DNA of 60,637 nucleotides from Cyanobacteriota bacterium (GTDB taxonomy: Bacteria; Cyanobacteriota; Vampirovibrionia; LMEP-6097): NCBI GenBank assembly GCA_027618255.1, contig JAQCFG010000003.1, positions 1-60,637 on the forward strand. Direction: 5' to 3'. Under the pieces are notes generated by a model. That model did not search any database. It was not told where the DNA came from and saw only the letters and a program-made list of their open reading frames with translations. A program made the translations under genes and the position numbers. Shown one piece after another: positions 432-53,338 of this stretch. Each line of letters opens with the position of its first letter. Position 1 is the stretch's first letter.

Positions 432-1759
432 TCCTCTTTATAATATTTTTTATTAACTAATTCATCTGGTAGATACTGCTGTTCAACATGCTTGCCTGGA
501 TAATCATGTGGGTATTTGTATTGAGTTACAGGATTGACTTTGACATTTGACTTTTTGCGAAAGCCCATCTCACTTTCATTAGCGGAACTAGTGCTTTGCA
601 CCGTTCCGACCTTTTTTTTGTCGACATCACTAGCAAAACTTTGTTTTGCAGGATGTCTATCATTATTAGATTTAGCTGGACAGTCTTTGACTGCTAGGTT
701 GCGTAAGTGCTTTGGTACTGGATATGGCGGGTGGTTGGAGCAATCATTGAGCGCTTTGTCCAAGGCTTTGTAAGCCCAGTTGGATTTGGGCGCCTGCGCG
801 ATATAAACAATTGCTTGTGAGAGCGGGATGCGCGCTTCTGGCATTCCTAGTTTCATTGCTACTTGATAAGCTGCGTTTGCTATCACGAGTGCTTGCGGGT
901 CGGCGATACCAACGTCTTCAGCTGCTGTGACAATTATTCTACGACAAACTGCTTCAAGATCAGCACCAGCGTGCAAGAGCCTAGCTAGCCAGTAAAGCGA
1001 GGCGTCAACATCGCTACCACGAAGTGATTTTTGTAAGGCTGAAATGCAGTCATAATAAGTATTGGGATCACCAGAAAAAAACTTGGTACTGATATTGTCT
1101 TTGCAAAGTTGCAAGTCTATAGTTTTGGAATTGTTGAGCAGGAGCTCAAGATTGGTAAGCATATGACGCGCATCACCAAAACTTGATTTGATTAAATAGT
1201 TCTTAGCGTCATCATCCATGCTCGCGTCACTGATTGCAAGTCCTCTGGCTATCAACTTCTCTAGATCGTAGTATTGATGCGGTCTTAGTTCAAAACAAAG
1301 TGATCTGCTTAAAAGAGCCTTGTTGATACTAACAGCAGGATTCTCTGTGGTTGCTCCAATCAAAATCAAAATCCCGCGTTCAATTGCATTAAGTAAAATA
1401 TCTTGTTGAGTTTTATTGAAGCTATGAATTTCATCGACAAAGAGCACTATTGAGTTTGGGATTTTTTCTGCTCTTGCAATAATTTCTCGAAGATCTTTGA
1501 CGCCGGAATTAAAGGCCTGTAGTTTGATAAATTCTCTTCGGGTATATTTGGCAGCAAGCTGGGCGATAGAGGTTTTGCCGGTGCCAGGTGGTCCCCAAAA
1601 AATAGCTGATTGTTTTACTCCCGATTCAAGCCAATTAATAAAGCCAGGATTGTTTTTGATTGAACCAACTAGTTCATCAAGAGAACCAGGTCTTAGTTTG
1701 TAAGCTAGTGGCTCAAAATCTTGAGCTTCAACGTAAAAGAGGCTTGCTTGGCTGGACAT
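428..1759 (-). CDS. rarA: RarA/MgsA replication-associated AAA+ ATPase with in-frame repeat insertion
   Basis: RarA is an AAA+ ATPase of the clamp-loader group that acts at stalled replication forks. Walker A (GPPGTGKT, residues 56-63), Walker B (VLFVDEIH, about 105-112) and sensor 1 (GATTENP, about 135-141) are all present, followed by the usual C-terminal tetramerisation region (HLRN... and HDYPG...). At 443 aa it is only slightly longer than the family norm. Residues 368-404, between HLRN and HDYPG, are not family sequence: they are the translation of a 111-bp dispersed repeat (548-658). The ATG at 1759 is preceded by TGCTATAAT only 6 bases upstream, overlapping the glpK stop. The gene therefore probably has its own leaderless promoter as well as read-through from glpD-glpK. 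Confidence 0.95.
   Translation of the reverse strand: MSSQASLFYVEAQDFEPLAYKLRPGSLDELVGSIKNNPGFINWLESGVKQSAIFWGPPGTGKTSIAQLAAKYTRREFIKLQAFNSGVKDLREIIARAEKIPNSIVLFVDEIHSFNKTQQDILLNAIERGILILIGATTENPAVSINKALLSRSLCFELRPHQYYDLEKLIARGLAISDASMDDDAKNYLIKSSFGDARHMLTNLELLLNNSKTIDLQLCKDNISTKFFSGDPNTYYDCISALQKSLRGSDVDASLYWLARLLHAGADLEAVCRRIIVTAAEDVGIADPQALVIANAAYQVAMKLGMPEARIPLSQAIVYIAQAPKSNWAYKALDKALNDCSNHPPYPVPKHLRNLAVKDCPAKSNNDRHPAKQSFASDVDKKKVGTVQSTSSANESEMGFRKKSNVKVNPVTQYKYPHDYPGKHVEQQYLPDELVNKKYYKED
548..658 (-). repeat. 111-bp protein-coding palindromic element, copy 1 (inside rarA)
   Basis: The segment encodes RHPAKQSFASDVD...VGTV...FRKKS as 37 in-frame codons of rarA. The same 111-bp length and the same reading frame recur at 8333-8443 and 52850-52960. 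The ends are imperfect inverted repeats (AGACATCCTGCAAAAC versus AGACTTTTTGCGAAAG-type). An internal CGGAACTAGT/GCACCGTTCCG region can also pair. It lies in the loop that normally joins two conserved blocks of the RarA C-terminal domain. Confidence 0.9.
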
Positions 1760-1765
1760 GGACTA

Positions 1766-1771
1766 ATTATA
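1766..1771 (-). promoter_or_regulatory. -10 element of rarA (leaderless)
   Basis: TATAAT on the minus strand, preceded by TGC (extended -10), with 6 bases to the rarA ATG. It overlaps the glpK stop codon. Confidence 0.55.
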
Positions 1772-3296
1772 GCAATTTGCTTAAATAGTTTTTCCAAACT
1801 TGATACTGAGCATCTAGGTTAGGTCCTGGCTCAAAAACCTTGTCTGCCTTAAGCTCTAGTTCAATCTCACCAGTCATCTTGGCAACTCCAAGAGCTGTCA
1901 TTTCGGTTTCTGTATATCTTTGAATGGGGATTTGCAAGAGATCAGCTTGAAACTGCATGAGAGTATCATTGAGACTAGCACCACCATCTACATTGAGCTG
2001 GGTGATTGACTTGCGCAGCTCTGGGTCAAGAGCTTCAAAAATATCCCTGACTCTATAAGCGATAGATTCAATGGCGGCTCTAGCGATATGGGCTTTGTTG
2101 CTGCCGCGAGTAATTCCAAAAATAGTGCCTCTGGCATCTCCCTTCCAGAAAGGTGCACCTAGACCAGCTAGTGCTGGAATTAAATAAACGCCACCATTGT
2201 CTGAGACTTCATTAGCTAGTGCTTCGATATCTGCTGATTTTTCGATGAATTGCAGTTCGTCTCGGAGCCACTGGACAATAGAGCCGCCAATAAAAATACT
2301 GCCTTCAAGCGCAAAGGCTTGAGCTGTTTCTGTTTTGTAAGCTGCACTTTTGAGTAAGCCGTCATTATTGGTTGCTAGTGAGAATGACATGGAGTCGCGT
2401 TCGTTACCAATGCGAGATTTGCTTTGAGCAGTGTCTCCCATTTTTGCTAGCCCCTTCCTGTAGGGAATCATCACAAAAGTCCCTGTACCATAAGTGCATT
2501 TGGCTTGGTTGTCATAGGCATAGAGCGCAGCTTGTTGGTCTCCTAGAACGGCTTTGATTGGCAGCTCTTGATCAAGCAAGTCTTGAAACAATGGGCTTGA
2601 ATTAAAATTGCCATTAGAGTCAATGACATCTGGAAGCATTAATTTATCTATCTTGAGCGTTTTGAGAATTTCTTCATCCCATTTGTTTTCGTTAATATCA
2701 TAGAGCATGGTGCGGGATGCATTGCTTGGTTCTGTGAGGTGGGCTCTGCCCAAAGTTAAATTCCATAGCAACCAAGTGTCTATAGTTCCAAACAAGAGGG
2801 GACAGCTTTGTCCAGCTTCTGCGTTAGTTTGACGATTATTTAAAATCCATTCTAATTTAGTCGCAGAAAAATAAGCATCTGGAATCAACCCTGTCTTGGC
2901 TTTGATATAATCGGTAAAATCAATATTGCCGATTTTGGTTTTGCTAAGTTCTTTGCATCTGTCACTAGTCCTGCGACATTGCCATACAATAGCCTTGTGG
3001 ACAGGTTTCCCTGAGCGTGGGTCCCAGACCACGGTCGTTTCTCTTTGATTAGTGATTGCTATAGATTTGATAGAATCTTTGTTGATTTTACAAGCGTCTA
3101 GGTTTTGTTTAATTAACTCACGGCAGCAAGCTAAAGTCTTGTCCCAAATTTCTGAAGCGTCATGTTCTACCCAACCAGGTTGAGGATAGTACTGTGTGAT
3201 TTCTTTTTGGACAATGTCAAGGATTTTACCTTGGGCGTCAATTAATAATGCCCGAGTGCTTGTCGTCCCCTCATCAATAGTTAACACATAATCCAT
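1767..3296 (-). CDS. glpK: Glycerol kinase
   Basis: FGGY-family kinase that phosphorylates glycerol to glycerol-3-phosphate in the cytoplasm. The phosphate-binding motif DEGTTSTR (residues 8-15), NQRET (83-87), the FGTIDTWLLWNL block and the C-terminal GLGAPFW segment are all present. At 509 aa it is near family length. Its ATG shares one base with the glpD stop (TAATG), so the two genes are translationally coupled. Residues about 285-309 form an extra segment compared with known GlpK (between YRKGLAK and NNDGLL). Its DNA (about 2370-2444) has inverted ends (GCTAGcaaaAATG versus CATTctcacTAGC), so it may be another in-frame palindromic insertion. Confidence 0.95.
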   Translation of the reverse strand: MDYVLTIDEGTTSTRALLIDAQGKILDIVQKEITQYYPQPGWVEHDASEIWDKTLACCRELIKQNLDACKINKDSIKSIAITNQRETTVVWDPRSGKPVHKAIVWQCRRTSDRCKELSKTKIGNIDFTDYIKAKTGLIPDAYFSATKLEWILNNRQTNAEAGQSCPLLFGTIDTWLLWNLTLGRAHLTEPSNASRTMLYDINENKWDEEILKTLKIDKLMLPDVIDSNGNFNSSPLFQDLLDQELPIKAVLGDQQAALYAYDNQAKCTYGTGTFVMIPYRKGLAKMGDTAQSKSRIGNERDSMSFSLATNNDGLLKSAAYKTETAQAFALEGSIFIGGSIVQWLRDELQFIEKSADIEALANEVSDNGGVYLIPALAGLGAPFWKGDARGTIFGITRGSNKAHIARAAIESIAYRVRDIFEALDPELRKSITQLNVDGGASLNDTLMQFQADLLQIPIQRYTETEMTALGVAKMTGEIELELKADKVFEPGPNLDAQYQVWKNYLSKLL

Positions 3297-4978
3297 TAAT
3301 AACCCTTGGTCAGAAGTTCTTTAGTCACATTGTCTCTTGTTCTTGCCATCAATTCAAATTCTTGACTAAGATAGTGGCTGATAGTTTGAATCACTGACTT
3401 CTCTATCTTATCGCTACTTAAGCCAATTGTTAAGCGTCTTTTGAGAATATCTTCAAGGGTATAGGCTGATTCGTTGCGAATTGCATAAACTATTTGCGCT
3501 TCAATATCTTCATAGTCTGGTGAGATTTTGTTTTTGAGTAGAGGATTTTTGAGGCAAAGATCAAGTAGCTCAGGCGTGTTAGTGCCGTAGAGCATTAACA
3601 AATGCAAGATAGTATGAGCTTCCATCTCATACCTTGAACTATAATCAGCTAAAATATTTTGTACATAGTCATAAAAACTTAAGTTCGGTGGATATTTGCA
3701 GCCAGTTGTTTTACTTTGGTCTGTGTGACACTTGTTTTTGGTTAGTTTGTCTACTACTTCTTTTGCAAGATTGCGGAAGGTTGTGATTTTGCCTCCTACT
3801 ACTGAGTAGTAATTTGAGATATGATCTTTTTTACCATGGTTGATTATTGAATGTTTGCGACTAACCTTGCCTTCTTTGCCTGTTTTGCTTAGGGGCAGCG
3901 GTCTCACTCCACAAAAGCTATTGGTGATTGATTTTGAGCTGAGATTTGCATTGGGAAATAAGTCATTAACTTCGTTGAGAAGATATTGGACTTCTTCTGC
4001 TGAGATTTTTAGATTGTCAAGATTGTCATGTGCTCCAAGAAAAATATCGGTGGTGCCAATTAAATAAAGATCTTCATTCATACCGATTTTATAGGGAAGA
4101 ATAAAGAAGGGTCTACCATCTGCTTTGGCTTCATTATAGATTCCAAATTTGGCAGGTGCTCCAGCAAAGGATTTGACTAGAATATGTGATCCCTTGGTGC
4201 CGCCAATGCGTTTAGCTGGACTGTGACTAAGTCTAAAACCTTCATTGGTTTTGAGCCATTCATGATCTTCGTCTAGCCATGGTCCGGTCATATTGATAAT
4301 GTTTTTGCCATAGACGGTGTATGGTTTTTTGCCATTGAGCATATCTTTGAATTTAATCGAGCTTGCTTGATAATTATCATTGACTTTGCTGCACTGAATA
4401 TCCGTTAGCTGACAGTGATTGAGGCAGATAGCTCCTAGCTCTTGAGCCGTTCTGATATTTTCAAGTACTAGTCTTTCCACAAATGGTACTTGCCCGTCAT
4501 GATAGAACACAGCACCCTTGAGGCCCTGTTGTTTGATATCAAGCTTGAGACTTGCCATTTGTTCTTTGCTGACAGTTTGGTAAGGTAGTAGACTTTTACC
4601 TGCAGAAAGTAAGTCATAAAACATCATGCCAAGTTTGAGTTTACTTAGGCTATATTTGCTTTTTTTGTAGGCTGGAACCAAAAGACCGATTGGGTTTACC
4701 AGATGAGGATAGTTTTGTAATAAAATTTCACGTTCCTGCAAGCTTTCATAAACCAAATTAAACTCAAGTTGTTCAAGATAGCGAAGACCACCATGAATTA
4801 AGCGAGTGGAATGAGCGCTACAACCAGAACCAAAATCATTCTTGTCGATTAACAGAGTTGTGAGCCCTCGCTCTGCTGCGTCACGGGCCGCACCAGCTCC
4901 ATTAATCCCCCCACCAATTATGATGAGATCAAAGAGTTGTGCTAAGTTGTATTGATCTAGCCGGTGTTCTATTCGCAT
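3296..4978 (-). CDS. glpD: Glycerol-3-phosphate dehydrogenase (FAD)
   Basis: Oxidises glycerol-3-phosphate to dihydroxyacetone phosphate and passes electrons to membrane quinone. The N-terminal FAD fold is clear (LIIIGGGINGAGAARDAAER, GGGxxG at residues 22-29), followed by STRLIHGGLRYLEQ, the substrate-domain motif FILPY, the conserved SNYYSVVGGKITTFR block and the C-terminal helical domain. Length 560 aa is normal. The start ATG has a weak AGG upstream (GCAGGTAAAAC). It is the first gene of glpD-glpK-rarA and makes glycerol a likely carbon or phospholipid intermediate source. It diverges from the module island to its right. Confidence 0.95.
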   Translation of the reverse strand: MRIEHRLDQYNLAQLFDLIIIGGGINGAGAARDAAERGLTTLLIDKNDFGSGCSAHSTRLIHGGLRYLEQLEFNLVYESLQEREILLQNYPHLVNPIGLLVPAYKKSKYSLSKLKLGMMFYDLLSAGKSLLPYQTVSKEQMASLKLDIKQQGLKGAVFYHDGQVPFVERLVLENIRTAQELGAICLNHCQLTDIQCSKVNDNYQASSIKFKDMLNGKKPYTVYGKNIINMTGPWLDEDHEWLKTNEGFRLSHSPAKRIGGTKGSHILVKSFAGAPAKFGIYNEAKADGRPFFILPYKIGMNEDLYLIGTTDIFLGAHDNLDNLKISAEEVQYLLNEVNDLFPNANLSSKSITNSFCGVRPLPLSKTGKEGKVSRKHSIINHGKKDHISNYYSVVGGKITTFRNLAKEVVDKLTKNKCHTDQSKTTGCKYPPNLSFYDYVQNILADYSSRYEMEAHTILHLLMLYGTNTPELLDLCLKNPLLKNKISPDYEDIEAQIVYAIRNESAYTLEDILKRRLTIGLSSDKIEKSVIQTISHYLSQEFELMARTRDNVTKELLTKGY

Positions 4979-5051
4979 GTTTTACCTGCATTACTGTTAT
5001 GCCCATTGGTTTTTCAGGTAATTAGAGGATATTTTTGCTAGTATTATTTGT

Positions 5052-5219
5052 ATGACAAGTGTTGGACAAGGTAATACGCCGCACGAATTTTAATCAAAAG
5101 TAGCTTCTCAATATTCTAAAGCAGCAGCAGGGATGTTTATGAGGGATAAAGTAAGAACTTTGCTAATCGATATTATGAACAGATCTGGTATTAGACAGGT
5201 TGATGAAGAAATTACTTAG
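5052..5219 (+). pseudogene. Decayed copy of the small 'MTS' protein gene (module 1)
   Basis: An ATG at 5052 opens MTSVGQGNTPHEF and then meets TAA at 5091-5093. The same frame continues through SKVASQYSKAAAG and ends in RDKVRTLLIDIMNRSGIRQ... before a TAG at 5217. Both ends match the module 2 gene at 6650-7104 (MTSIPEQSNTP... and RDKVRSFLINLMDRTAIRP...), but about 100 middle codons are missing. The gene is therefore a relic with an internal deletion plus an in-frame stop. Its end overlaps the stop of the facing ATPase gene by 8 bases, exactly as in module 2. Confidence 0.75.
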
Positions 5220-6561
5220 GATGCTTTTTTGAAACAATCTCTGTAAGTCTTCCTGCAAGATACAAAGGTATCTTATAAACATTAGTTCTGTGATCGATAT
5301 TAAGGTTTTGTCCACTGACAATAGTATTGATTTTATTGTGATATTGCTCTCTAAATAAATATATACTTTTGGCTTTGGTTACTTGTCCAGCTTTGACTTC
5401 TATTGGAGTAATTTCTCCGTCAAGATCAAGCACAAACTCAAGTTCTTTTTGGGCTTCTTGCCATGAGAAAATAGGCTTATTGTTACAGAGGCTTTGGACA
5501 AGTGCTTGCGCGACATAGTTCTCGGCGAAAAATCCTTTGTAAGTTCCATAATCATAGTCATAAATTGTTTTGGGGGCAAGATCAATCATTGCTCCTAATA
5601 GACCAATATCAAAAACAAATAATTTAAACGAGCTTGCTTTGAGATTTGATTTAAGGGGAAGAGCGATATGGTCAAGGATTGGGATTTTGATAATGAGGCC
5701 GGCTGCTTCAAGCCAGTCTATGCTAGAAATTAATCTTGAATATCTATTTTTTTCGGGAATGGCTGACTTGAATTTGAATTTATTGGCGTTAGCTGTTTGT
5801 GATTGAGAGAGCTGCTCACCGATATTATTCCAGAGTCTTTGTAAGTGGACAGCGTTTTCTTTACCTGCATGTTTTGCCATGTCACCCAAGTAATCAGTAA
5901 TGAGATCTTGTTGTTTGTATCTCACTTGCTCAAACGCTGTTGCTAATTGATCTTGGTGTTTTATAAACTCAAGCACGACTTCTGGCAAGCCACCAGTGAT
6001 AAAGTAAAGCTTGACTAAGTTCCAGAGTTTCTGGTGTAGTTCAGGATAGATTTGTTCTTGGCTTATTCCTTCTTCTAATGCTTCAAGCAGAATGTTTTTA
6101 TTTAAGGCTTGCAAGAACTCAGTGAAATTCATAGGGTACATTTCAATGTGATCTACCTTACCAACAGGGTATGAAAGCTCGTTAAGCTTGACTCCAAGCA
6201 AGGAACCAGCGGAGATCACCGCTTGATTGGGCTTTTGCTCACAAAAATACTTGAGGCTGGTAAGAGCGCGAGGGCATTCTTGTACTTCATCAAAAATAAT
6301 TAGATCTTGCTCAGAGATATTATGCTCAAGACTAATTGAAAGTCTTTGGATTATAGTTTGAGGATTTATATTGTCATCAAAAATTGTCCTAAGTTCTTTT
6401 TGTTCTTCAAAGTTGATGTAAGTATAGTGAGCAAAATTATTCTTGGCGAAATCTATCAGGCTATAGGTTTTACCAATTTGCCTGGCCCCTTGAAGAATTA
6501 AGGGCTTGCGTTTGGCTTTTTGCTTCCATTCCTGCAATTTGGCTAGGATGTCACGTTTCAT
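5212..6561 (-). CDS. DUF4143-type AAA+ ATPase, module 1
   Basis: Predicted ATPase of the COG1373/DUF4143 group, whose biological role is not established. From the ATG at 6561: Walker A GARQIGKT (about residues 25-32), Walker B LIIFDEVQ, the SAGSLLG sensor-like block and MYPMNFTEFL typical of the ATPase core. A C-terminal restriction-endonuclease-like domain carries ELEFVLDLDGEITPIEVKAG, with the spacing of a PD-(D/E)XK core (D...ExK). I prefer the ATG at 6561 to the upstream in-frame TTG (6579), because the TTG lies inside a 52-bp palindrome. Intact and probably functional. It faces the dead small gene at 5052-5219 and diverges from the module 2 small gene. Confidence 0.85.
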   Translation of the reverse strand: MKRDILAKLQEWKQKAKRKPLILQGARQIGKTYSLIDFAKNNFAHYTYINFEEQKELRTIFDDNINPQTIIQRLSISLEHNISEQDLIIFDEVQECPRALTSLKYFCEQKPNQAVISAGSLLGVKLNELSYPVGKVDHIEMYPMNFTEFLQALNKNILLEALEEGISQEQIYPELHQKLWNLVKLYFITGGLPEVVLEFIKHQDQLATAFEQVRYKQQDLITDYLGDMAKHAGKENAVHLQRLWNNIGEQLSQSQTANANKFKFKSAIPEKNRYSRLISSIDWLEAAGLIIKIPILDHIALPLKSNLKASSFKLFVFDIGLLGAMIDLAPKTIYDYDYGTYKGFFAENYVAQALVQSLCNNKPIFSWQEAQKELEFVLDLDGEITPIEVKAGQVTKAKSIYLFREQYHNKINTIVSGQNLNIDHRTNVYKIPLYLAGRLTEIVSKKHPK

Positions 6562-6568
6562 GCGTATA

Positions 6569-6649: not shown

Positions 6650-7104
6650 ATGACAAGTATTCCTGAACAAAGTAATACCCCCCCCCCATTAATCAGTTAG
6701 AGTTAGCGCGGCAAGTTCGAAAACAGGCTATCGATTCAGCATTTGCAAAACAAATTGATTTGCCTCTGACCTTTGCTGCTGTTGCGCCAGGTATGGATAG
6801 AAGAACCTCTGACGCATGGACAGAAATTATGGTGCATAGTGCTTTAGATTGCTCTCAAGCAGCTTGTGCTGCAAACTGGACAAAGCTTAGTTTAGTAGAC
6901 TTCATGAAAAAGTTCTCGAGTTTTGTTAAGGGTATGACACCAACAGAAGAACTAAAAGAATTAAAATCTTACCTTGCTGACGTTTATCGAAACTCACGCT
7001 TAGCTGCTAAAACAACTCTTAATGTGCGTGATAAAGTAAGATCTTTTTTGATTAATCTTATGGATAGAACTGCTATTAGACCAATAGATGAAGACATCAA
7101 CTAA
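6650..7104 (+). CDS. Small 'MTS' protein of module 2, switched out of frame at a C10 tract
   Basis: The ATG at 6650 begins MTSIPEQSNTPPP and runs into TAG at 6698-6700. A second open frame runs through 7104 (...INQLELARQVRKQAID...DKVRSFLINLMDRTAIRP...). The frame change falls at ten consecutive Cs (6678-6687); eight or eleven Cs would join the two parts into one protein of about 150 aa. As written the gene is off. The N-terminus matches copies at 5052 and 8510, and the C-terminus matches the copy at 5052. Ser/Ala-rich helices dominate, with no signal peptide; function unknown. Its stop overlaps the facing ATPase by 8 bases. The alternative is a true frameshift or an assembly error at the homopolymer. 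Confidence 0.7.
6678..6687 (+). repeat. C10 homopolymer tract
   Basis: Ten consecutive Cs, ten codons into the small gene, in an otherwise AT-rich region. Slippage here would switch the gene on or off. Confidence 0.9.
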
Positions 7105-8263
7105 AAAGCTTATCCAGAAAATCTCTCCAAGGATAAACAGTAATCTCTCCAAGTTCTTTGGCGCGAGCTGCTCTTGAGACACAGATTAATTCTGAATCTT
7201 GATTAATTTCTTGAAAGGAAAATAAACCACGCAAATCTGCTTTGCTTGGGTTTTCACTTGATTTGATTTCAATGGCGAGGGTGTGACCGTCAGGCTTTTC
7301 TATAATTAGATCGACTTCTGTATCATTGGAACTGCGATAAAAACTAAGATCCCAGTTTTTTTTGTAATAACGATTGAGTTTGATTATTTCATTGATAATA
7401 AAATGTTCAAAAACAACACCATAAGTATATGTTGCTGGAATAATGTCATCGCTAAGGTTGTTGAGTAAGGCGTTACGCACGCCATTGTCAAACAAATAGA
7501 ATTTGGGATGTTTGACGAGGCGCTTGCGAGTAGACTTATTGTAGGGTTTTAAGAAGCTGCCAATAAGCGTGTCTTCTAGCACCTGAAAATATTCTTTAAT
7601 GCTTTGATTACTGGTAGCTGCTTCCCTGGCGATATTTGAGTAATTAAGTAAGTTACCACTTTCACTAGCTGCAAGTCTCAAGAAGCGTGTGAAAGCTCCC
7701 ATGTTGCGGACGATTGCTTCAGCTTTGATTTCTTCTGTTAGGTAAGTCTCAACATATGATTGAAGCATTTCTTGAGCTGCTTCATCATCGTTAAGGTAAA
7801 TAGCAGGAAGAGTTCCAAAGCGCAAGGCGCGCCCAAGGTCAAAATCCTCACCAAGTTCACTATAACTAAGTGGGTAGAGGCGACGAGTCCAGGCTCTACC
7901 ACCAAGCATGTTAGCTTGCCCACGTTTGAGTTTGCGAGCTGAAGAGCCGCTAAGTACAAAATAAATCTGCCTATCCAAGTTTTCAATTAAGTTATGAACT
8001 TCATTAAGCAAGGCTGGGATTCTTTGTACTTCATCAATAATTACATGGCTAATTTGAGGATCAAGTTGACGAACTTCCTCGGCTAGTAGTTCTGGGTGAG
8101 CAACTAACCTGGTATATTCTTTTTCAAGCAATAGGTTGTAGTATGCAGAACTTTCTTTGCAAAAACTATGTTTGATTAATGTACTTTTACCGACTTGTCT
8201 TGGCCCAAAGAGAAAAAAATGAGCTTGTTGAGGTAATTCAAGTAGGCGTTTTTTAGAAGCCAT
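7097..8263 (-). CDS. DUF4143-type AAA+ ATPase, module 2
   Basis: Same broad family as the ATPase at 5212-6561 but a different subgroup. Walker A is GPRQVGKST near the N-terminus, Walker B is VIIDEVQRIP, then SGSSARKLKRGQANMLGGRA. The C-terminus has TEVDLIIEKPDGHTLAIEIK, again a PD-(D/E)XK-like D...ExK arrangement. The chosen ATG (8263) gives MASKKRLLEL and lies next to a -10 TATAAT 6 bases upstream and within an inverted repeat; an upstream in-frame start at 8338 would read through that repeat. The gene ends 8 bases inside the module 2 small gene. Appears intact (389 aa). Confidence 0.85.
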   Translation of the reverse strand: MASKKRLLELPQQAHFFLFGPRQVGKSTLIKHSFCKESSAYYNLLLEKEYTRLVAHPELLAEEVRQLDPQISHVIIDEVQRIPALLNEVHNLIENLDRQIYFVLSGSSARKLKRGQANMLGGRAWTRRLYPLSYSELGEDFDLGRALRFGTLPAIYLNDDEAAQEMLQSYVETYLTEEIKAEAIVRNMGAFTRFLRLAASESGNLLNYSNIAREAATSNQSIKEYFQVLEDTLIGSFLKPYNKSTRKRLVKHPKFYLFDNGVRNALLNNLSDDIIPATYTYGVVFEHFIINEIIKLNRYYKKNWDLSFYRSSNDTEVDLIIEKPDGHTLAIEIKSSENPSKADLRGLFSFQEINQDSELICVSRAARAKELGEITVYPWRDFLDKLFS

Positions 8264-8324
8264 ACTATAATTATACCATGTATTTTTATGGTTTAACATA
8301 GAATTGCATGGTGTTATTATAGTA
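8263..8324. promoter_or_regulatory. Inverted repeat at the start codon of the module 2 ATPase, with -10 TATAAT
   Basis: Arms 8263-8280 (TACTATAATTATACCATG) and 8307-8324 (CATGGTGTTATTATAGTA) pair at 15 of 18 positions across a 26-base spacer. The minus-strand -10 TATAAT (8270-8275) is inside the proximal arm, so binding there would block the promoter. Confidence 0.6.
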
Positions 8325-8332
8325 GAATAAAT

Positions 8333-8443
8333 AGACATCCTGCAAAACTCTGTTTTGCTAGAGATGTCGACACAAAAAAGGTCGGAACCATGCGGAGCAT
8401 GTGTTCCGCCAGTGGAGATAATAGTGACTTACGCAGGAAGTCT
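8333..8443 (+). repeat. 111-bp protein-coding palindromic element, copy 2 (intergenic)
   Basis: Reads RHPAKLCFARDVDTKKVGTM...CSAS...LRRKS with no stop across exactly 37 codons, in the same frame as the copies inside rarA and rnhB, and is followed at once by ATT TAA. It lies between the module 2 ATPase promoter and the module 3 small gene and is not part of a recognisable gene here. Confidence 0.85.
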
Positions 8444-21582: not shown

Positions 21583-21655
21583 TCTACTGTAAAACCCCCT
21601 TTATCTTTACTAACGGAACTAGTGAGCAGCGTTCCGACCTTTTTACAGAATCCTT
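21583..21655 (-). repeat. Degenerate copy of the 111-bp element family
   Basis: AAAGGTCGGAACGCTGC...ACTAGTTCCGTTAGTAAAGA on the minus strand matches the second half of the copies in rarA and rnhB. The FASDVD-coding part is missing and the frame is not kept. It is intergenic between mgtE and cdsA. Confidence 0.65.
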
Positions 21656-43432: not shown

Positions 43433-43471
43433 TGCGAAGCATCATCGCGTCGAAACGTAGTGAAGACGGAT
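43430..43471 (+). repeat. GACG-type repeat unit at the ftsZ stop codon
   Basis: Hairpin TGATGC-GAA-GCATCA (43430-43444), then CGCGTCGAAACGTAGTGAAG and ACGGAT. The same order, hairpin at a stop codon then CGCGTCGAAGCGTAGCGAAG, is at 57474-57535. Confidence 0.7.
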
Positions 43472-43528
43472 AAATCTAGGTTAATTCATTCAGAATTGTA
43501 CTTGAGAAAATTTTCTCAATAGTTTCAT

Positions 43529-45721: not shown

Positions 45722-47260
45722 ATGTCAGTCTTGGAACTAAGATATTGCACAGCCCTATTGTTAGCCTTTTGCTTAAGTTCTTGCAGTCTATTTCACAAAC
45801 CAATTGCAGTTGTTACAGGTGATCCACTTGCCACAGAGGCTGCAATCAAGATTTTGAAACAAGGCGGCACGGCTGCTGATGCATTTATTACTGCGGTTTT
45901 GGTGCTCACTGATGTTGAGCCGCAGGCTTCTGGATTGGGTGGTGGATTTTTTGCAATTTATTACGACGCCAAAACCAAGAGAACTTATGCGCTTGATGCT
46001 AGAGAAGAGCAGCCAGCTAGTTTAAGTTCAGATATTTTTTGGGATTATTCTAGTGCTGAACCTAAGGATGGCTGGTATACAAGTGCAGCGAGTATCGGGG
46101 TTCCTGGAGTTGCTGATGGTATGGCCGTTTTGCATAAGAATTTTGGTAAGCTGGATAGAGATCAGATTATTGAGCCAGCAATAGATATTGCCGAGAATGG
46201 TTTTGCAGTGACGGAGTATTTTTATAAGCTCTTGCAAAAATATCCTGACTTACATCCTTGGACAGATTATCAAGTTGGTGATTTGTTTATTAACAAGGAC
46301 TATGCTAAGACGCTTAATTTACTTGCCACAAATGGCTTTGAAGCCTTTTATAATGGGGCTTTGGCTGAAGCTATAGTCAAGCTTGGAGAGGAAGACAAAA
46401 TCCCTAGTGCAATGGATCTTGATGACCTTAATAACTACAGAGCAGTTTTTCGCCAGCCGCAAACCTATAACTACGGTCAGTATCAAGTTGTGAGTATTGG
46501 TTCACCGAGTTCCGGTTCTTCTACTTTATATCGTATTTTTGATTTAGTTTTTGCTGGTATTGGTGAATATAAATCGATTGATGCATCTTACAAAATACGG
46601 AAGCAAAGTTTTGGAGACGAGGATTTTACTGAGAGTAAATGTCGAGTAAAAGATGATGCTTTTGAAAATTTGAGTCAGCTTGATGGTTTTACTAGCTTTC
46701 ATGAGGAAAAAGGCACCACTCATATTGCTATCACTGATCGTTATGGTAATGCAATTAGCGGTACTGTCACTATTCAGAGTGCCTTTGGTAGTGGGCGTTT
46801 GCTGCCAGGCTATGGTTTTCTTTTGAATAATGAGTTGAGTGATTTTGATCCTCAGCGTGGTCAATGTAATTCAATTCAAAGCGGGCGTAGATTACGGGCT
46901 GGTGCAATTGGACTAACGAGTGATGGGCAAGAAGCTAACAAGACTTATGGCGCCAAACGACCAAGGTCGTCTATGACGCCTCTAATTGTCTTTGATAAAA
47001 ATAAACCAAGTTTGGTTTTGGGCGCGTCTGGTGGTTGGACTATTATTAATTCGGTTTATCAGGTCTTCACTAATATAGTTGATGGAGGGATGAGTCTTGA
47101 AGCTGCGATTCAAAAACCAAGAGTCTTTATCAAAGGTGATGGCAAAGTCTATGATGAGTCTGAGATTGGTTTCCCTACTGCTGTCAATGGAATAGATCTT
47201 GCTCATGCTAAGGCTTATGCCGATAGACGTAAGAATGGGTCAAGCTTAGTGTTAAAATAG
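45722..47260 (+). CDS. ggt: Gamma-glutamyltranspeptidase lipoprotein
   Basis: Cleaves gamma-glutamyl bonds such as in glutathione. An N-terminal lipobox (LAFCLSSC) is followed by PLATEAAIKILKQGGTAADA and VEPQASGLGGGFFAIY. The autoprocessing site is EKGTTHIAITDRYGNAIS, where the first Thr of TTH should become the N-terminus of the small subunit; the GSGRLLPGYGFLLNNELSDF block follows. At 512 aa it is a little shorter than typical, with an unusual linker (KIRKQSFGDEDFTESK). Anchored outside the cytoplasm. Six bases separate it from the RND adaptor gene. Confidence 0.9.
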   Translation: MSVLELRYCTALLLAFCLSSCSLFHKPIAVVTGDPLATEAAIKILKQGGTAADAFITAVLVLTDVEPQASGLGGGFFAIYYDAKTKRTYALDAREEQPASLSSDIFWDYSSAEPKDGWYTSAASIGVPGVADGMAVLHKNFGKLDRDQIIEPAIDIAENGFAVTEYFYKLLQKYPDLHPWTDYQVGDLFINKDYAKTLNLLATNGFEAFYNGALAEAIVKLGEEDKIPSAMDLDDLNNYRAVFRQPQTYNYGQYQVVSIGSPSSGSSTLYRIFDLVFAGIGEYKSIDASYKIRKQSFGDEDFTESKCRVKDDAFENLSQLDGFTSFHEEKGTTHIAITDRYGNAISGTVTIQSAFGSGRLLPGYGFLLNNELSDFDPQRGQCNSIQSGRRLRAGAIGLTSDGQEANKTYGAKRPRSSMTPLIVFDKNKPSLVLGASGGWTIINSVYQVFTNIVDGGMSLEAAIQKPRVFIKGDGKVYDESEIGFPTAVNGIDLAHAKAYADRRKNGSSLVLK

Positions 47261-47265
47261 TATAG

Positions 47266-48318
47266 ATGCGTCTGCTATGTTTAATTTTATTGTTCTTTAC
47301 TGTTGCCTGTTCAAAACAAGTTACACAAACACCTGTAGCTAAACCCCTTTTTGTCAAAGTAGCAAAAGCAGAGCTTGGTGAAATTACTAGAGAGTTTGAG
47401 ACTTCTGGTGAACTAAAAGCCGATAAAGAGATTTTAGTGGCTGCTGAACGTCAAGGCATGGTCAAAGAGATTTATGTTTATGAAGGCAAGTTTGTTAATG
47501 CTGGAGATGCTTTGATTCAGATTGAAGGCAAGGATGTTGATGCTGATCTTAAAAAAGCTCAGAGTGATTTTGCTTCTTACCAAAATCTATACGAGCAAGG
47601 AGCGATTTCTAAACAAGAGCTGATTAATTATGAGGCGCAGCTTAAACGAGTTCAGTCACAAATTGACAACCTCAAAATCTCTGCAATTAGCTCTGGTGTG
47701 ATTGGTGTGATCTATGTTGATCCTGGTGACTATGTTAAACAAGGTGACAAAATACTTGACTTGGTCAAGGTTTATCCTCTGAGAGTGAGTTATTCTGTGC
47801 CGGAGAAATTGATTTCGAAAATAATGATTGGGCAAAAACTAGAGCTTGAGACAGATTCAGAATCCGGCAAGGTTTTTGATGCCAGTGTGGATTTTATTTC
47901 ACCAAGGGTGGATCCCGAAACAAGAACGGTTTTGCTTAGAGCTAAGATCACAAGTCCAAGCACTAAGCTCAAGGCTAATCAATTCGTGAAAGTCAAACAA
48001 GTGATCGAGAGTTCTAGTAATAGTTTACTGGTTAGAGAAGAGTCGCTCTATTTGGATCAAGGACAGGAGTATCTTTATTTGGCGGTAAACTCATCGTCAT
48101 TGCGAGACGAAGGCGAAGCAATCCAGTCTGGATCGCCGCGCGCCGAAGGCGCTCGCGATGACGTTTCATATACAGCAACCCGTATCGCTGTCAAAACCGG
48201 TCACCGACAAGAGGGTAAGGTAGAAATTCTAGAAGGTATTCAAGAGGGGGATGATGTGATTTATGCAGGTTTGCATAGTATTTATCCGGGGGCGAACTTG
48301 GTGATAGTTGAAGACTAG
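47266..48318 (+). CDS. RND efflux periplasmic adaptor lipoprotein, with in-frame repeat
   Basis: HlyD/AcrA-type membrane fusion protein. Lipobox FFTVAC, then the lipoyl-like half motifs (KEIYVYEGKFVNAGDALIQI; SGVIGVIYVDPGDYVKQGDK), a short coiled hairpin, and the beta-barrel (FDASVDFISPRVDPETRTVL). It links the RND pump to an outer membrane channel. Residues about 277-300 (SSLRDEGEAIQSGSPRAEG) are the translation of a dispersed repeat (48094-48163), in the membrane-proximal domain. The pump gene lies 0.5 kb downstream, after an opposite-strand gene. Confidence 0.88.
   Translation: MRLLCLILLFFTVACSKQVTQTPVAKPLFVKVAKAELGEITREFETSGELKADKEILVAAERQGMVKEIYVYEGKFVNAGDALIQIEGKDVDADLKKAQSDFASYQNLYEQGAISKQELINYEAQLKRVQSQIDNLKISAISSGVIGVIYVDPGDYVKQGDKILDLVKVYPLRVSYSVPEKLISKIMIGQKLELETDSESGKVFDASVDFISPRVDPETRTVLLRAKITSPSTKLKANQFVKVKQVIESSSNSLLVREESLYLDQGQEYLYLAVNSSSLRDEGEAIQSGSPRAEGARDDVSYTATRIAVKTGHRQEGKVEILEGIQEGDDVIYAGLHSIYPGANLVIVED
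48094..48163 (+). repeat. CGTCATTGCGAG-family palindromic element in the RND adaptor gene
   Basis: TCGTCATTGCGAGACGAAGG...CTCGCGATGACG: 70 bases with inverted ends (CGTCATTGCGAG / CTCGCGATGACG), kept in the Ser-Ser-Leu-Arg frame. Confidence 0.82.
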
Positions 48319-48782
48319 GACTGTTCTTGTGCTGCGCCAAGTTCCTGATGTTTTAGCCAAAGGGGTATTGCAGTTGCGAGATTGTAGTTTGGATTGTTTG
48401 CCGATTCGAATGCACAGTAGATTAATTCAGCATCATCATCATTTTTAGAGAGCTTAATTAGCTTAGCTTGCAGTGCTTGAGCTTTTTCAGATTTCAAATA
48501 ACCTCTATCATCGAGTAAGGTTTTAGGGAAGATACCCTCACTTAGTTGTTTATCTTCTGCCTCGGTGAGCTCACCAGGAAGTAGCTTAGTTGGTGTTGTG
48601 GCGCTAGTGTCTGCAGCAAGTCGTTTGGCAATTTCTTTTGCTTTGCTTTCAGCCTCAGTAATAGTTGTAGAGCTAGCTACAAGTTCGTGGCCAAGAGCAT
48701 GCGTGAAGGCCTTTGATACTCGCGCTGCCATCACTCCCCTTTGTACATGTGCACTATTATGTCTTGTTTCTGTTACTTCCAT
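48315..48782 (-). CDS. Hypothetical protein (155 aa) between the two RND genes
   Basis: Not recognised. Polar and helical (ITEAESKAKEIAKRLAAD; KSEKAQALQAKLIKLSKN) with no signal or membrane helix. It is on the strand opposite to the efflux genes on both sides and starts 48 bases from the RND pump start. Its own -10 TGCTAAGAT lies 7 bases upstream of the ATG. Placement suggests insertion or a regulator, but nothing in the sequence proves either. Confidence 0.5.
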   Translation of the reverse strand: MEVTETRHNSAHVQRGVMAARVSKAFTHALGHELVASSTTITEAESKAKEIAKRLAADTSATTPTKLLPGELTEAEDKQLSEGIFPKTLLDDRGYLKSEKAQALQAKLIKLSKNDDDAELIYCAFESANNPNYNLATAIPLWLKHQELGAAQEQS

Positions 48783-48789
48783 ATTTCTT

Positions 48790-48795
48790 ATCTTA
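48790..48795 (-). promoter_or_regulatory. -10 element of the 48315-48782 gene (leaderless)
   Basis: Minus-strand TGCTAAGAT, 7 bases before the ATG at 48782. TAAGAT also occurs on the plus strand about 13 bases before the RND pump ATG. Confidence 0.4.
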
Positions 48796-48830
48796 GCATA
48801 TTCTAAATTGCTAAGATTGTAACAACAGCA

Positions 48831-51800
48831 ATGAAAATCAGCTCTCTACCAGACCTCTCAATCCAAAAACCAGTACTGGCAACAGTAATGTCTCTGGTTA
48901 TTGTTTTTGCTGGGTTTTTAGCTTGGAGCAAATTACCAGTCCGTGAATACCCGGATATTGATCCGCCAGTAATTACTATTACTACTGTGTATCCAGGTGC
49001 TAGTTCTACTGTTATTGAGTCAGAGATTACTGATTTGATTGAGTCTGAGCTTTCTGGAATTACTGGAATCAAAACAATGACCTCTAGTTCTAGAGATCAA
49101 GTGAGTACTGTTGTGCTTGAGTTTGTGCTTGAGCGCAATATTGATATTGCAGCTCAAGATGTTAGAGATAAAGTAGCTAGGATTTCAAGAAAGCTTCCTG
49201 ATAATGCTGACGATCCGATTATTGCCAAGGCAGATGCTGACGCCCAGCCTATCATGTGGATCAAAGTGCAGTCTAAGAGTCTATCCGAGAAGCCCCATCT
49301 GCTGCGTTACACTCCTCAAGTGATGTCATCATTGACGGCTCAGTCAACTCAGCCATCACTTTCGTCGCAAGCCTTGCATCTGGGAACTTCTCGAACAGAC
49401 TCTCCCGAGAGAAACCTAATTGACCTAGCTGAGTATGTTGATCAGGAGATTAAGGATTATTTTCAAAATGTACCAGGTGTTTCCAAGGTGATTTTTGGTG
49501 GTGAGCGGCGCCGTTCGATTCAAGTTCTGCTTGATACCAAGAAGCTCGCTTATTATGGTCTTACGGTTATTGATATAGAAAAAGCTCTTGACGCTAATAA
49601 TATAGAATTGCCCGCTGGTACTATTTTGTCAAAGACTAGAGAGTTTAGTATCAATGTTAATGCCAAGCTAACGACTCCTGAGGAATATGCCAATATCAGT
49701 ATTAAGGATTCAAGCTTTGGTTTAGTTAAACTCAAAGACGTCGCTCAAGTGATACTTGGTGCCCAGAATGATAAGAGTTTTGTGAGATTCAATGGACAAC
49801 AGGGTTTTGGGCTTGGTATTGTAAGACAAGCTCAGTCTAATACAGTCAAAATTTCAGATGCTGTTCACAAATTAATTAAGGAATTAGAGCCGAAGATACC
49901 TGAGGATATTGAGCTTGAGGTTGGTTATGATGCTGCGCAGTTTATTCGCCTGAGTCTTCAAGAGCTTTACACGACTATTTTCCAAGCGACTTTATTGGTG
50001 CTCTTAGTTATTTTTGTATTTTTGCGTAATATCAGAACTACTCTGATTCCAAGTTTGGCGATTCCAATTAGCCTTGTGGGTGTGATGATTGGGATTCAAG
50101 CTTTTGGTTTTACGTTAAATCAAATGACTTTGCTTGGTTTAATTATTGCAATTGGAATTGTGGTTGATGACTCGATTATTGTTCTTGAGAATATTTATCG
50201 TTATATAGAAGAAGGTATGGACGCTAAGGCTGCAGCCAAGAAAGGAGCAGAAGAAATTACTTTTGCTGTTATAGCTACTACTTTGGTTTTGATTTCTATA
50301 TTTTTGCCGGTGGCTTTTCTGTCAGGAATTACTGGTAGATTACTTTCTGAGTTTGCTTTTTCACTGTGTTTTGCTACTAGTATTTCTAGTTTTGTGGCAC
50401 TCACTATCGTGCCAATGTTGTGCTCAAGAGTTTTTGTGAAGATACCTTCAAGATCTAGCCATCAAGGTTTTACTTTCTATAATCAAATTAAAATATGGCT
50501 CGAAAGACTTTTTGTGAGACTGGAACAAGCTTATGCTTCAATGCTTGATTTGGTTTTAAAACATAAAAACAAATTTGTTTCAATAGTATTATTGGTTTCA
50601 GTTTTTGCTTCAGTATTTCTTTTTAATAGCTTGCCCAAGGATTTTATACCTAATGAAGATAGAGGGACCTTTTTTGTGATCTTTAAAAGCCCACGTGGCA
50701 GTAATATAGATGTAATTGATAAGCAGATACGCAAAGTTGAGACTTTGCTTGCAAAGATACCCGAAATTGCTACAACTATTTCAGTTGCTGCCTTTGGGCG
50801 TGATGCGCCAGGTAAAGTGACAGAAGGGATTATAATCACCAGGCTTAAGCATTGGAAAGAAAGAGCTCGCAAGGTTGGAGCTATCGTTGGGCCACTTTAT
50901 CCGCAGCTTTTTGCAATGCCTGAGGTTTTTACTTTGCCAATTATGCCCAAATCAGGTCCAGATAGTGGTTTTGGTAGTCAGCCAATTCAGCTTGTCCTTA
51001 AATCAAACAATCTTGATTTCTTGGTTAAGGCGTCAGCTGCAATTACTCAGCAATCGGCGACCTTGCCAGCGATTATGTTTGCTCGTTCTAATTTGAGTCT
51101 TGATAAACCAGAGCTTACTGTTGATATCAACAGAGAAAAAGCTCAGAGCCTTGGTTTGTCGATGGAGGATATTTCTAAGTCAATAGAATTATTGTTTACC
51201 GGTATTGATGTTACCGAGTTTAATGATAAGGGAGAGAATTATAAAGTCATACTTACTGTCGCTAGAGACCAGAAAGATAGTATCAGCAAGATTGGCGAGT
51301 TTGCGCTTCGTAACCAAGATGGGCGGATGATTCAATTGAGTAATTTAATTACAGTAAGGGAGACTATTGGAGCTGAGGATCTGAATCATCATAATCGCAA
51401 GAAATCAGTAACCATAGAAGCCTCTCCTCAAGTGGGTGTTACGCCTTCTGATGGGCTTATGGAATTGGAGAGACTTGCTAAGACAGTAATTGCTGGAATG
51501 GAGAATGTGCCTGCAGATTTTGAGATGGATTATTTGGGTACTTCTAAAGAATTGCAAGACTCCAATGCTGCGCTTTATTTCGGTTTTGTTATAGCTTTGA
51601 TTTTTGCTTATCTATTTTTGGCTGGACAGTTTGAGAGCTTCTTGTCTCCAGTAATAATTATGCTTACAGTACCACTGGCGCTGGTAGGTGCGTTATTTGG
51701 TATTTTTGCTTTTCAATTTTTCCCGTGGATTACTCATGTCCTGACTGGTATTTTAGGTGAGAAATTCTTTTGGCTTCAATATGCAATTCCGCAGTTTAAA

Positions 51801-52154
51801 AACATTAGTCTCAATCTTTATTCTCAAGTTGGCATGATTATGCTTATTGGTATGGCAACCAAAAATGGAATTTTGCTTGTTGAGTTTATGAATCAGCTGC
51901 GCGAGCAAGGAATGTCGACAATGGATGCAATCAAACAGGCTGCTCGTTTGCGTTTGCGCCCAGTATTAATGACGGCAGTTTCTACGATTTTGGGTTTGCT
52001 GCCTATCGCGCTTGCTTTAGGTATTGGTACTGAATCTAGACAAAGTCTTGGGGTCGTGATTATTGCTGGGATGACAGTTGCGACTGTTTTGACCTTGGTT
52101 TTGGTGCCGGCAGTTTATGCTGTGTTTTACCAACGCCGGGTCGTAACAAAGTAA
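48831..52154 (+). CDS. RND multidrug efflux pump, AcrB/MexF type, with 43-codon insertion
   Basis: Proton-driven inner membrane exporter with 12 membrane helices and two large periplasmic loops. VREYPDIDPPVITITTVYPG at the N-terminus, helix 4 with GIVVDDSIIVLENI (proton-relay Asp pair), FLPVAFLSGITG, and helix 10 IGMATKNGILLVEF are diagnostic. Length 1107 aa is above the usual 1030-1050. The excess is mainly residues 152-194 (SEKPHLLRYTPQ to RTDSPER), which split a conserved porter-domain segment (KVQSKSL...NLIDLAEYVDQ). It pairs with the adaptor at 47266. The last residues are encoded by a perfect palindrome (52131-52184). Confidence 0.95.
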   Translation: MKISSLPDLSIQKPVLATVMSLVIVFAGFLAWSKLPVREYPDIDPPVITITTVYPGASSTVIESEITDLIESELSGITGIKTMTSSSRDQVSTVVLEFVLERNIDIAAQDVRDKVARISRKLPDNADDPIIAKADADAQPIMWIKVQSKSLSEKPHLLRYTPQVMSSLTAQSTQPSLSSQALHLGTSRTDSPERNLIDLAEYVDQEIKDYFQNVPGVSKVIFGGERRRSIQVLLDTKKLAYYGLTVIDIEKALDANNIELPAGTILSKTREFSINVNAKLTTPEEYANISIKDSSFGLVKLKDVAQVILGAQNDKSFVRFNGQQGFGLGIVRQAQSNTVKISDAVHKLIKELEPKIPEDIELEVGYDAAQFIRLSLQELYTTIFQATLLVLLVIFVFLRNIRTTLIPSLAIPISLVGVMIGIQAFGFTLNQMTLLGLIIAIGIVVDDSIIVLENIYRYIEEGMDAKAAAKKGAEEITFAVIATTLVLISIFLPVAFLSGITGRLLSEFAFSLCFATSISSFVALTIVPMLCSRVFVKIPSRSSHQGFTFYNQIKIWLERLFVRLEQAYASMLDLVLKHKNKFVSIVLLVSVFASVFLFNSLPKDFIPNEDRGTFFVIFKSPRGSNIDVIDKQIRKVETLLAKIPEIATTISVAAFGRDAPGKVTEGIIITRLKHWKERARKVGAIVGPLYPQLFAMPEVFTLPIMPKSGPDSGFGSQPIQLVLKSNNLDFLVKASAAITQQSATLPAIMFARSNLSLDKPELTVDINREKAQSLGLSMEDISKSIELLFTGIDVTEFNDKGENYKVILTVARDQKDSISKIGEFALRNQDGRMIQLSNLITVRETIGAEDLNHHNRKKSVTIEASPQVGVTPSDGLMELERLAKTVIAGMENVPADFEMDYLGTSKELQDSNAALYFGFVIALIFAYLFLAGQFESFLSPVIIMLTVPLALVGALFGIFAFQFFPWITHVLTGILGEKFFWLQYAIPQFKNISLNLYSQVGMIMLIGMATKNGILLVEFMNQLREQGMSTMDAIKQAARLRLRPVLMTAVSTILGLLPIALALGIGTESRQSLGVVIIAGMTVATVLTLVLVPAVYAVFYQRRVVTK
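49284..49412 (+). repeat. 129-bp in-frame insertion in the RND pump gene
   Basis: Exactly 43 codons. The ends are roughly inverted (TCCGAGAAGCCCCATCTGC versus GCATCTGGGAACTTCTCGA), and GGCTCAGTCAACTCAGCC marks a central dyad. The flanking protein sequence reads straight across in relatives. No second copy is in the window. Confidence 0.65.
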
Positions 52155-52184
52155 CGTTCGTTACTTTGTTACGACCCGGCGTTG
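52131..52184. repeat. 54-bp perfect palindrome at the convergent ends of the RND pump and rnhB
   Basis: Two exact 26-base arms (from CAACGCCGGGTCGTAAC...) around a TT centre. The left arm encodes the end of the RND pump (QRRVVTK, stop), and the right arm, on the other strand, encodes the end of RNase HII (NAGS, stop). It could act as a terminator, though no T-run follows. Confidence 0.85.
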
Positions 52185-53338
52185 ATATTGCCCAGGAAAG
52201 TCTTACGATGTTCTTTGGTCAAGCCATGTTCTTGAATGGCTCGCATGTGTTTGCTGGTGCCGTAGCCGACATTAGTTTCCCAGATATACTGTGGCTGTGA
52301 GATTGCAAGTTCTCTCATATAATCATCACGCTTGTCTTTAGCAAGGTTGCTAGCTGCTGCAATCAGAGAACTCGTTGAGTCACCTTTGACTATGTTTTTT
52401 TGTCTGATGATGATCTCGTTTTGCTCGCGTTTAAGTTGTATGTGAGTTTGCTTGTAATCAAGCCCAAGTTCTAGGAAACTAAAATCTATGATTTTGCGTT
52501 TTTTAAAGATTTCTCTACTTAGTTCTGCTAGGTTTTGTATGGTCTTTGTGCCGTCAATTAATAAGAGAATCTCATCTGGGTAACGGTGATAGAGATCAAG
52601 GTGCTGCTGAACGATATTGATGAGGTTTTCTGTCATAGAGCGCCAGATAGCTTTGACAATACCGTATTTGTCGATATATTCGGCACTTTGCATATTAGTT
52701 GAATGAAACAGGTGTTGATCGGCACTGAAATAAGGTAGGTCGAGTAAAGCCTTGCAGAGTGCTTTACGTTTGGATTTGAGGACTTTTTTACTATCATCGA
52801 GCAGTAATAATGAACTAATTTCTTGGACATCTTGCAAGTCTGCTTCAATAGACCTTTTGCGAAAGTTCCCTTTGTCTTTACTAGCGGAACTAGTGCGCCG
52901 TACCGTTCCGACCTCTTTTGTGTCGACATCACTAGCAAAACGAGGTTTTGCAGGATGTCTAATACTGGTCTCGTTGATAATTGTTTCAGCGTAATATCTA
53001 TCTCTATCATTCAGTGAGATGAAATCACCACTCATTAATTGACTAGATCGTTTGACTTCAGTTAGTAGATCTTGTTTTTCGGCATAAAAACTAGAACAAG
53101 AATAAGCGCCGGTGCAAACAGGTCCAGCTACGCAGCCTCTGCCAACCTCATCAAAACCAATTATTAGAGTGCCTTCAGCGAGATCTAGATGGAGCTTCTC
53201 ATCAAAGCTAATTAACTTAGAAAAATTTTCGAGGTGTTTGTCAGAATAGAGTTGTTGATAATTCTTGCGGACTTTGGGCTTGGCGGAAGCAAATAATTTA
53301 TTACGTCGTTTTTTCTTTTTGGTTTTTGCCAGACTCAT
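52169..53338 (-). CDS. rnhB: Ribonuclease HII with N-terminal extension and in-frame repeat
   Basis: Removes ribonucleotides from DNA and RNA primers. Catalytic motifs are intact: GFDEVGRGCVAGPV (D and E), LLLDDSKK, LLIDGTK (D), VKGDSTSSLIAAASNLAKDK and YGTSKHM. It has 389 aa, whereas RNase HII is usually about 200. The excess is a basic N-terminal tail (KTKKKKRRNKLFASAKPKVR), longer loops, and residues 127-163 that are the translation of the 111-bp repeat, just before the DDSKK motif. The start overlaps the upstream gene by 38 bases, so they are probably co-transcribed. Confidence 0.93.
   Translation of the reverse strand: MSLAKTKKKKRRNKLFASAKPKVRKNYQQLYSDKHLENFSKLISFDEKLHLDLAEGTLIIGFDEVGRGCVAGPVCTGAYSCSSFYAEKQDLLTEVKRSSQLMSGDFISLNDRDRYYAETIINETSIRHPAKPRFASDVDTKEVGTVRRTSSASKDKGNFRKRSIEADLQDVQEISSLLLLDDSKKVLKSKRKALCKALLDLPYFSADQHLFHSTNMQSAEYIDKYGIVKAIWRSMTENLINIVQQHLDLYHRYPDEILLLIDGTKTIQNLAELSREIFKKRKIIDFSFLELGLDYKQTHIQLKREQNEIIIRQKNIVKGDSTSSLIAAASNLAKDKRDDYMRELAISQPQYIWETNVGYGTSKHMRAIQEHGLTKEHRKTFLGNINAGS
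52850..52960 (-). repeat. 111-bp protein-coding palindromic element, copy 3 (inside rnhB)
   Basis: Encodes RHPAKPRFASDVDTKEVGTV...TSSAS...FRKRS, 37 codons in the same frame as the copies at 548-658 and 8333-8443. The ends AGACATCCTGCAAAAC and AGACCTTTTGCGAAAG are imperfect complements when read inward. Confidence 0.92.

Follow-up and report, generated by a model that had tools for sequence, protein, structure and literature searches.

The stretch of DNA analysed here, referred to as the window, comprises 60,637 nucleotides on contig C3 of a draft genome of 1.99 Mb (G000). It contains three copies of an element of exactly 111 bp, one within rarA, one within rnhB and one between genes, in all of which the frame reading RHPAK is open (Table 1). 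These copies, their host genes and a decayed relative near 21583-21655 had been proposed in an earlier note made from the sequence alone, and all were recovered; Pfam matches (MgsA_C and RNase_HII) agree with the gene assignments. The note also took the intergenic copy to have kept its frame. That frame is indeed open, but this is uninformative, as family-A copies (see below) are open in it in 54 of 57 cases irrespective of their location. The predicted start ATG of the ORF at 7097-8338 (minus strand) falls within this copy; since the protein probably starts further downstream than predicted, the copy is still considered intergenic. The claim that the inserts occupy surface loops was tested in part: the RarA insert lies between two stretches with counterparts in E. 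coli RarA (3pvs), where a short link joins them, and the RnhB insert sits between two conserved motifs. AlphaFold models of RnhB and RarA made without an alignment reached a pLDDT of 32-36 and were not used for loop assessment. A scan of the window with Rfam 15 gave no match at the gathering score to any structured-RNA family.

Table 1 Features of the window. Frame +0 is the sense frame that reads RHPAK; G001, G002 and G004 are genomes of relatives.
Feature	Position	Strand	Remarks
rarA/mgsA, host gene	428-1759	-	443 aa including the insert (residues 368-404); Pfam MgsA_C, AAA; E. coli RarA 3pvs
Family-A element in rarA	548-658	-	111 bp, frame +0, reads RHPAKQSFASDVDKKKVGTVQSTSSANESEMGFRKKS; site empty in G001, G002
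Family-A element between genes	8333-8443	+	111 bp; includes the start codon predicted for ORF 7097-8338 (-)
Decayed element remnant, intergenic	21596-21644	-	about 90% identity over 52 aligned positions
rnhB (ribonuclease HII), host gene	52169-53338	-	389 aa including the insert (residues 127-163); Pfam RNase_HII
Left 3-bp target duplication of the rnhB copy	52847-52849		AAT
Family-A element in rnhB	52850-52960	-	111 bp, frame +0, reads RHPAKPRFASDVDTKEVGTVRRTSSASKDKGNFRKRS; site empty in G001, G002, G004
Right 3-bp target duplication of the rnhB copy	52961-52963		AAT

The element had been described as palindromic, which holds in the sense that it consists of three local hairpins and terminal inverted repeats, but no single long palindrome is present. 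Hairpin 1 (GACATC, GCAAAACnnnGTTTTGC, GATGTC) is followed by an A-rich linker (AAAAAAGGT), by hairpin 2 with variable arms (GGAAC..GTTCC) and by hairpin 3 (GACTT..AAGTC), and the terminal inverted repeats (AGAC..TGC and GCA..GTCT) close the element. Folding yielded z values of -4.1 to -6.8. Hairpin 1 and the terminal repeats covary across the families, with both the score and the number of changes on both sides exceeding those of every shuffle and every slid register; for the terminal repeats, with ends of 11 bp, 76.7% of cells were paired and the covariation score was above all shuffles. Covariation scoring covered hairpin 1 and the terminal repeats; the register of hairpin 2 shifts between families. 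In frame +0, the element encodes a stop-free, hydrophilic peptide of 37 aa with the pattern RHPAK..FAsDVd.KkVgT......Dk.dF..KS.

Element matches numbered 44 in G000, 41 in its congener G001 and 22 in G004, a member of another genus of the same family, and nearly all are 111 bp long. The 5' end of the element occurs at 61 sites in G000, as compared to none for a reversed-pattern control, so that the copy number is far above chance. Reading these 5'-end sites revealed four related families (A-D) with one common layout. Among the copies of families A, C and D and those of G004, up to about 40% of positions vary, and yet all are 111 bp long with an open frame +0, while family B has lost one base and is 110 bp long. 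Two loci of G000 (L174 and L180) are chimeras, in which a 5' half of family A or B is joined to a 3' half of family C, and the families thus recombine. G001 also contains variants of 180 bp (L048 7033 and L084 7507), in which a passenger of 69 bp (23 codons) with its own palindrome, GGGTCTCTTGAGACCC, lies in hairpin 2. Solo mini-hairpins made up of element ends only were found as well, one of 22 bp (AGACTTGTTTCGAAACAGGTCT) flanked by ATT duplications and one of 36 bp (L171 1373; C20:17896, L033).

Outside its own lineage, the core pattern of the element was present in only one record set among 84,980 species genomes scanned, that of Candidatus Melainabacteria SI037S4_bin4 (GenBank JABHOV01), which is the congener G001. 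When 289 genomes of the class were searched, the element was seen in at least five, all of one Melainabacteria family, among the matches listed (up to 13 places per genome). The host lineage is thus marine Melainabacteria and not rickettsial. This bears on the possibility that a true Rickettsia or Wolbachia palindromic element (RPE or WPE) reached Melainabacteria by gene transfer, which we consider very improbable. The NCBIfam library includes RPE domains, and the 37-aa peptides had no NCBIfam match at E values up to 1; the core scan led to Melainabacteria only and the class-wide search, among the matches listed, to a single family, and the congener belongs to Candidatus Melainabacteria rather than to Rickettsia or the Rickettsiaceae. 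What speaks for such a transfer is that, as the literature describes them, the Rickettsia elements are of the same size class (100-150 bp), fall into several families and reside in frame in housekeeping genes.

The likeness to the Rickettsia elements, pointed out in the earlier note, does hold at the level of behavior, namely in size, in the presence of several families and in residence in frame within genes, with no sequence kinship detected. Protein-coding palindromes have been known in Rickettsia since 2000, as RPE-1 to RPE-10 (Ogata et al. 2000, 2002, as related in PMC10969869 and PMC3767692), and a 2024 review, in its account of them, treats Rickettsia as an unusual case and their occurrence elsewhere as only supposed (PMC10969869). 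According to the same two later papers, these elements form hairpins, occur as several families per genome and lie in frame in unrelated metabolic genes with one conserved peptide per family. Compared through such later papers, the Melainabacteria element differs in belonging to another phylum, with no detected sequence kinship, and in showing an exact 3-bp ANT duplication, terminal repeats and recent activity, as well as in having a candidate for its autonomous transposon. The WPE (Ogata et al. 2005, as cited in PMC3767692) are likewise protein-coding palindromic repeats found outside Rickettsia proper, but are alphaproteobacterial; this comparison is one of descriptions only.

Using the joined flanks of host proteins as queries against relatives, we found that for about 25 hosts the orthologous site lacks the element. 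In many of these (PurL, MsrAB, NadC, GalE, TruB, GlyS and others), the difference from the empty DNA site amounts to the 111-bp element and exactly 3 bp, a duplication of the target trinucleotide ANT; the 114 bp together add 38 codons. In purL, for example, GAGTTTAAT, the element and AATAAAGAA stand against an empty site reading CAGTT, a gap of three bases and TAATCAA. In the RumA-like gene, both element ends are gone in the copy of G000 (L022, contig C18), and G001 (L203) has 11 other codons at this position, which looks like trimming after insertion.

An alternative, that RarA, RnhB and the other proteins inherited the segment from their ancestors, for instance as a small shared domain, would fit the fact that at least two insertions, in ResB and in a TPR-like protein, are common to two species. 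We give it practically no credence, as the segment is absent from the corresponding site of relatives, in many genes exactly to the base with the 3 bp added, and as the same DNA is also found between genes and with a length of 110 bp. For rnhB and rarA themselves, ancestral residues are refuted by the empty orthologous sites. The chance that repeats were misjoined into genes during assembly is likewise negligible. While the assemblies are drafts of many contigs and G001 is a metagenome bin, the orthologous differences of 114 bp are in frame, duplications are present, one gene holds two tandem copies, and the insertions shared between orthologs diverge as the host gene does.

In G004, all 22 full-length copies are 111 bp long, 14 of them share one identical sequence, and perfect 3-bp duplications (AAT, ATT or ACT) flank each of these 22 near-identical copies, which shows that transposition in this genome was recent. 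Perfect ANT duplications were found for 38 of 56 full-length copies in G000 and 12 of 32 in G001, and these lower rates are consistent with older insertions.

The earlier note did not name a mover, for which an IS5-family transposon is now a candidate. G004 contains a 76-aa C-terminal remnant of a DDE transposase and, some 78 bp further on, TTTCGCAAATGATCT followed by AAT, which is close to the element end TTTCGCAAAAGGTCT followed by ANT. The nearest relative of this remnant in the class is an insertion sequence (IS) of 1002 bp in G013, a genome from another family, with two ORFs across a run of eight A. Its domains, HTH_Tnp_4 and DDE_Tnp_4 (PF13613 and PF13359), are those of an IS5-type DDE transposase, and its best NCBIfam family is IS5 (NF033581), below the cut-off with the two ORFs scanned apart. 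The left end of this IS, AGACCTTTTGCGAAAGTC, is identical to the 3' end of family D at 18 of 18 positions, and its right end agrees with the family-D ends at 14 of 16. Within the 2469-bp locus, this 18-mer is matched best at the two ends of the IS itself (18/18 and 14/18), as compared to at most 15 matching positions in 300 shuffled loci; family-A ends agree less well (15/18). The IS is flanked by AAT and ATT, an imperfect duplication, and G057 carries a degenerate third copy of the transposon with the same right end. Given the end matches in G013 beyond those of shuffled loci, and the same ends at the remnants in G004 and G057, we consider the 111-bp element to carry the ends of an IS5-family transposon.

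No intact partner turned up in the genomes that bear the element. The draft genomes G000, G001 and G004 yielded no complete transposase of the matching kind, only the remnant in G004, none was found in the viral contigs searched, and the DDE_Tnp_1 loci of the three genomes showed no matching ends except at the IS5-type remnant. The partner transposon may have been lost or be absent from the draft assemblies. Since many miniature inverted-repeat transposable elements (MITEs) outlive their partner, the lack of an active partner in the same genome makes the mover less certain but leaves the class of the element unaffected.

Each genome also holds 5-6 Y1_Tnp genes of about 300 aa, and these, together with the hairpin structure and the solo mini-hairpins, would fit a REP-like element moved by such Y1 (RAYT) transposases. 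Nonetheless, the Y1 genes read have no element-like ends beside them, the element's ends are matched by those of an IS5 transposon, and, since Y1 transposition is to our knowledge not known to duplicate its target, the perfect 3-bp duplications point to a DDE enzyme. We thus regard a REP-like origin as scarcely probable.

Among known transposons, the IS5 group of ISL2-like elements (ISCaa2 and ISCaa3 of Amoebophilus) is about 1 kb long, with two overlapping ORFs joined by a frameshift and an IS5-type transposase, and relatives were noted in cyanobacteria (PMC3196728). The 111-bp element has no transposase gene and has only the ends in common with such an IS. ANT is the target of the ISL2 group. 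QMITE1 and QMITE2 of Coxiella burnetii are bacterial MITEs that form hairpin RNA and sometimes lie in frame in genes (PMC5896051), but QMITE2 makes duplications of 7-9 bp, as given in PMC10969869, and the accounts consulted describe neither a codon-exact length nor a single preferred frame. PARCELs are also palindromic DNA that encodes peptide, but their 25-residue units are repeated in tandem, often in proteins of the membrane or surface, and are not solitary inserts in housekeeping genes (PMC2996958).

About 30 copies lie within conserved and often essential genes, including those for RnhB, RarA, PurL, GlyS, MurI, TsaE, GalE, NadC and ResB. A copy entered this count if a homolog has the site empty or if the insertion is shared. 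Of these copies, 28 are read in sense frame +0 (RHPAK) and two in antisense frame -0, at the TruB C-terminus and, as a 180-bp variant, in a nitroreductase. One ABC-permease gene holds tandem elements of families A and C, both in frame. The earlier note had named copies of random length and frame as an outcome that would speak against it; the genome-wide list has nearly all in-gene copies in one frame. In family A, four of the six frames are often stop-free; of these four, only +0 is hydrophilic, with a mean GRAVY of -0.76 as compared to +0.33, 0.00 and +0.83. Within the genes of the window, 44% of ANT trinucleotides fall in codon phase 0, and the +0 share expected from ANT phase and stop content is about 0.33 of viable insertions, against the 28 of 30 observed (binomial tail 5e-12). 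A frame-blind approach, in which each full-length copy was excised in silico, placed 25 sites in ORFs, all of 111-bp copies and 21 in sense phase 0, while the 23 copies of other lengths, among them the 110-bp family B, all fell outside ORFs (Fisher p 0.003).

Copies in frame -1 near gene starts, 3-9 codons past a possible start, were left out of the in-gene count, as they may be insertions just upstream of genes. Such upstream copies (L035, L011, L086/L007, L172, L198, L121, L019 and L061) have an open, hydrophobic frame -1 that runs into the gene from a potential start codon located 3-9 codons ahead of the element. They may reflect chance or be a source of N-terminal segments.

The host proteins are presumably made with the segment. 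Between G000 and G001, the shared insertion in ResB (family C) differs by five synonymous and two nonsynonymous changes (pS 0.20, pN 0.023), and that in the TPR-like protein has a pS of 0.36 and a pN of 0.135. The resulting dN/dS values, of about 0.1 and 0.3, suggest that the peptide of these shared insertions is translated and somewhat constrained. Substitutions by codon position show no difference between copies inside genes and those outside, so that constraint on the peptide is weak in general, and pN/pS between families is mostly somewhat below 1 with no clear signal. One could take the purifying selection on the two shared insertions to mean that the element, once mobilized as a MITE, serves its hosts as a domesticated linker instead of being merely tolerated. 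This concerns only a few old insertions, with no general codon-position signal, and most hosts carry the insertion in one species only, and we find such usefulness improbable.

Considering all of these data, we assign a probability of about 0.85 to the element being a MITE that belongs to an IS5-family (DDE_Tnp_4) transposon and that can live in coding sequence by virtue of its length, its target and its open frame. It is a MITE by structure and RPE-like by behavior: it is short, lacks a transposase gene, occurs in multiple copies, has terminal inverted repeats and a fixed-length duplication, and shares its ends with an autonomous element, with no active autonomous element seen in G000, G001 or G004. 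On this model, an IS5-family transposase, probably a relative of the G013 element acting in trans, would recognize the terminal inverted repeats and insert the element at ANT, duplicating the trinucleotide and adding 114 bp, or 38 codons. Where ANT is a whole codon and the direction is sense, the insertion would give a stop-free hydrophilic peptide of 37 aa that many proteins may tolerate; other frames would give stops or a hydrophobic peptide and would mostly be purged. We infer that such purging is the cause of the frame bias.

A more far-reaching reading, which we hold only tentatively and consider somewhat doubtful, is that the element is adapted to genes, such that the 3n length (111 + 3), the codon-shaped ANT and the permanently open hydrophilic frame are themselves kept by selection. 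In-gene copies would then be a protected reservoir, as copies within essential genes cannot be deleted or frameshifted. The constancy of 111 bp and of the open +0 frame in families A, C, D and G004 despite divergence of up to about 40%, together with the absence of family B from genes, would support this reading without proving it. If it is true, the Rickettsia elements would be an independent case of the same strategy.

As a MITE that lives in genes, the element represents a second, apparently independent case of protein-coding palindromes, in another phylum, and one for which target duplications and empty sites are seen along with recently made copies and a candidate transposase. The later papers on the Rickettsia elements, in what they relate of them, report no counterpart to this candidate moving mechanism. 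The shared IS5 ends suggest how protein-coding palindromes can spread, and the mechanism of their movement becomes testable in ordinary laboratory strains. In addition, conserved enzymes here carry dozens of naturally occurring 38-codon insertions, which are a resource for studies of protein tolerance.

The window also contains repeats of other kinds. Inverted repeats of the form CGTCATTGCGAG...GAAGCAATCC lie at 48095-48129 and 60341-60375, and also at L167, and the genome has some six Y1 transposases; the repeats resemble the CGTC-tagged REP class (PMC3733652), and one family-B element is interrupted by a sequence of this type. A 57-bp tandem repeat (AAGCTTCAGCAATGCTCATCGCGTCG...), its length a multiple of 3, is present in three copies at 57492-57662, with a related 31-bp copy at 43442-43472.
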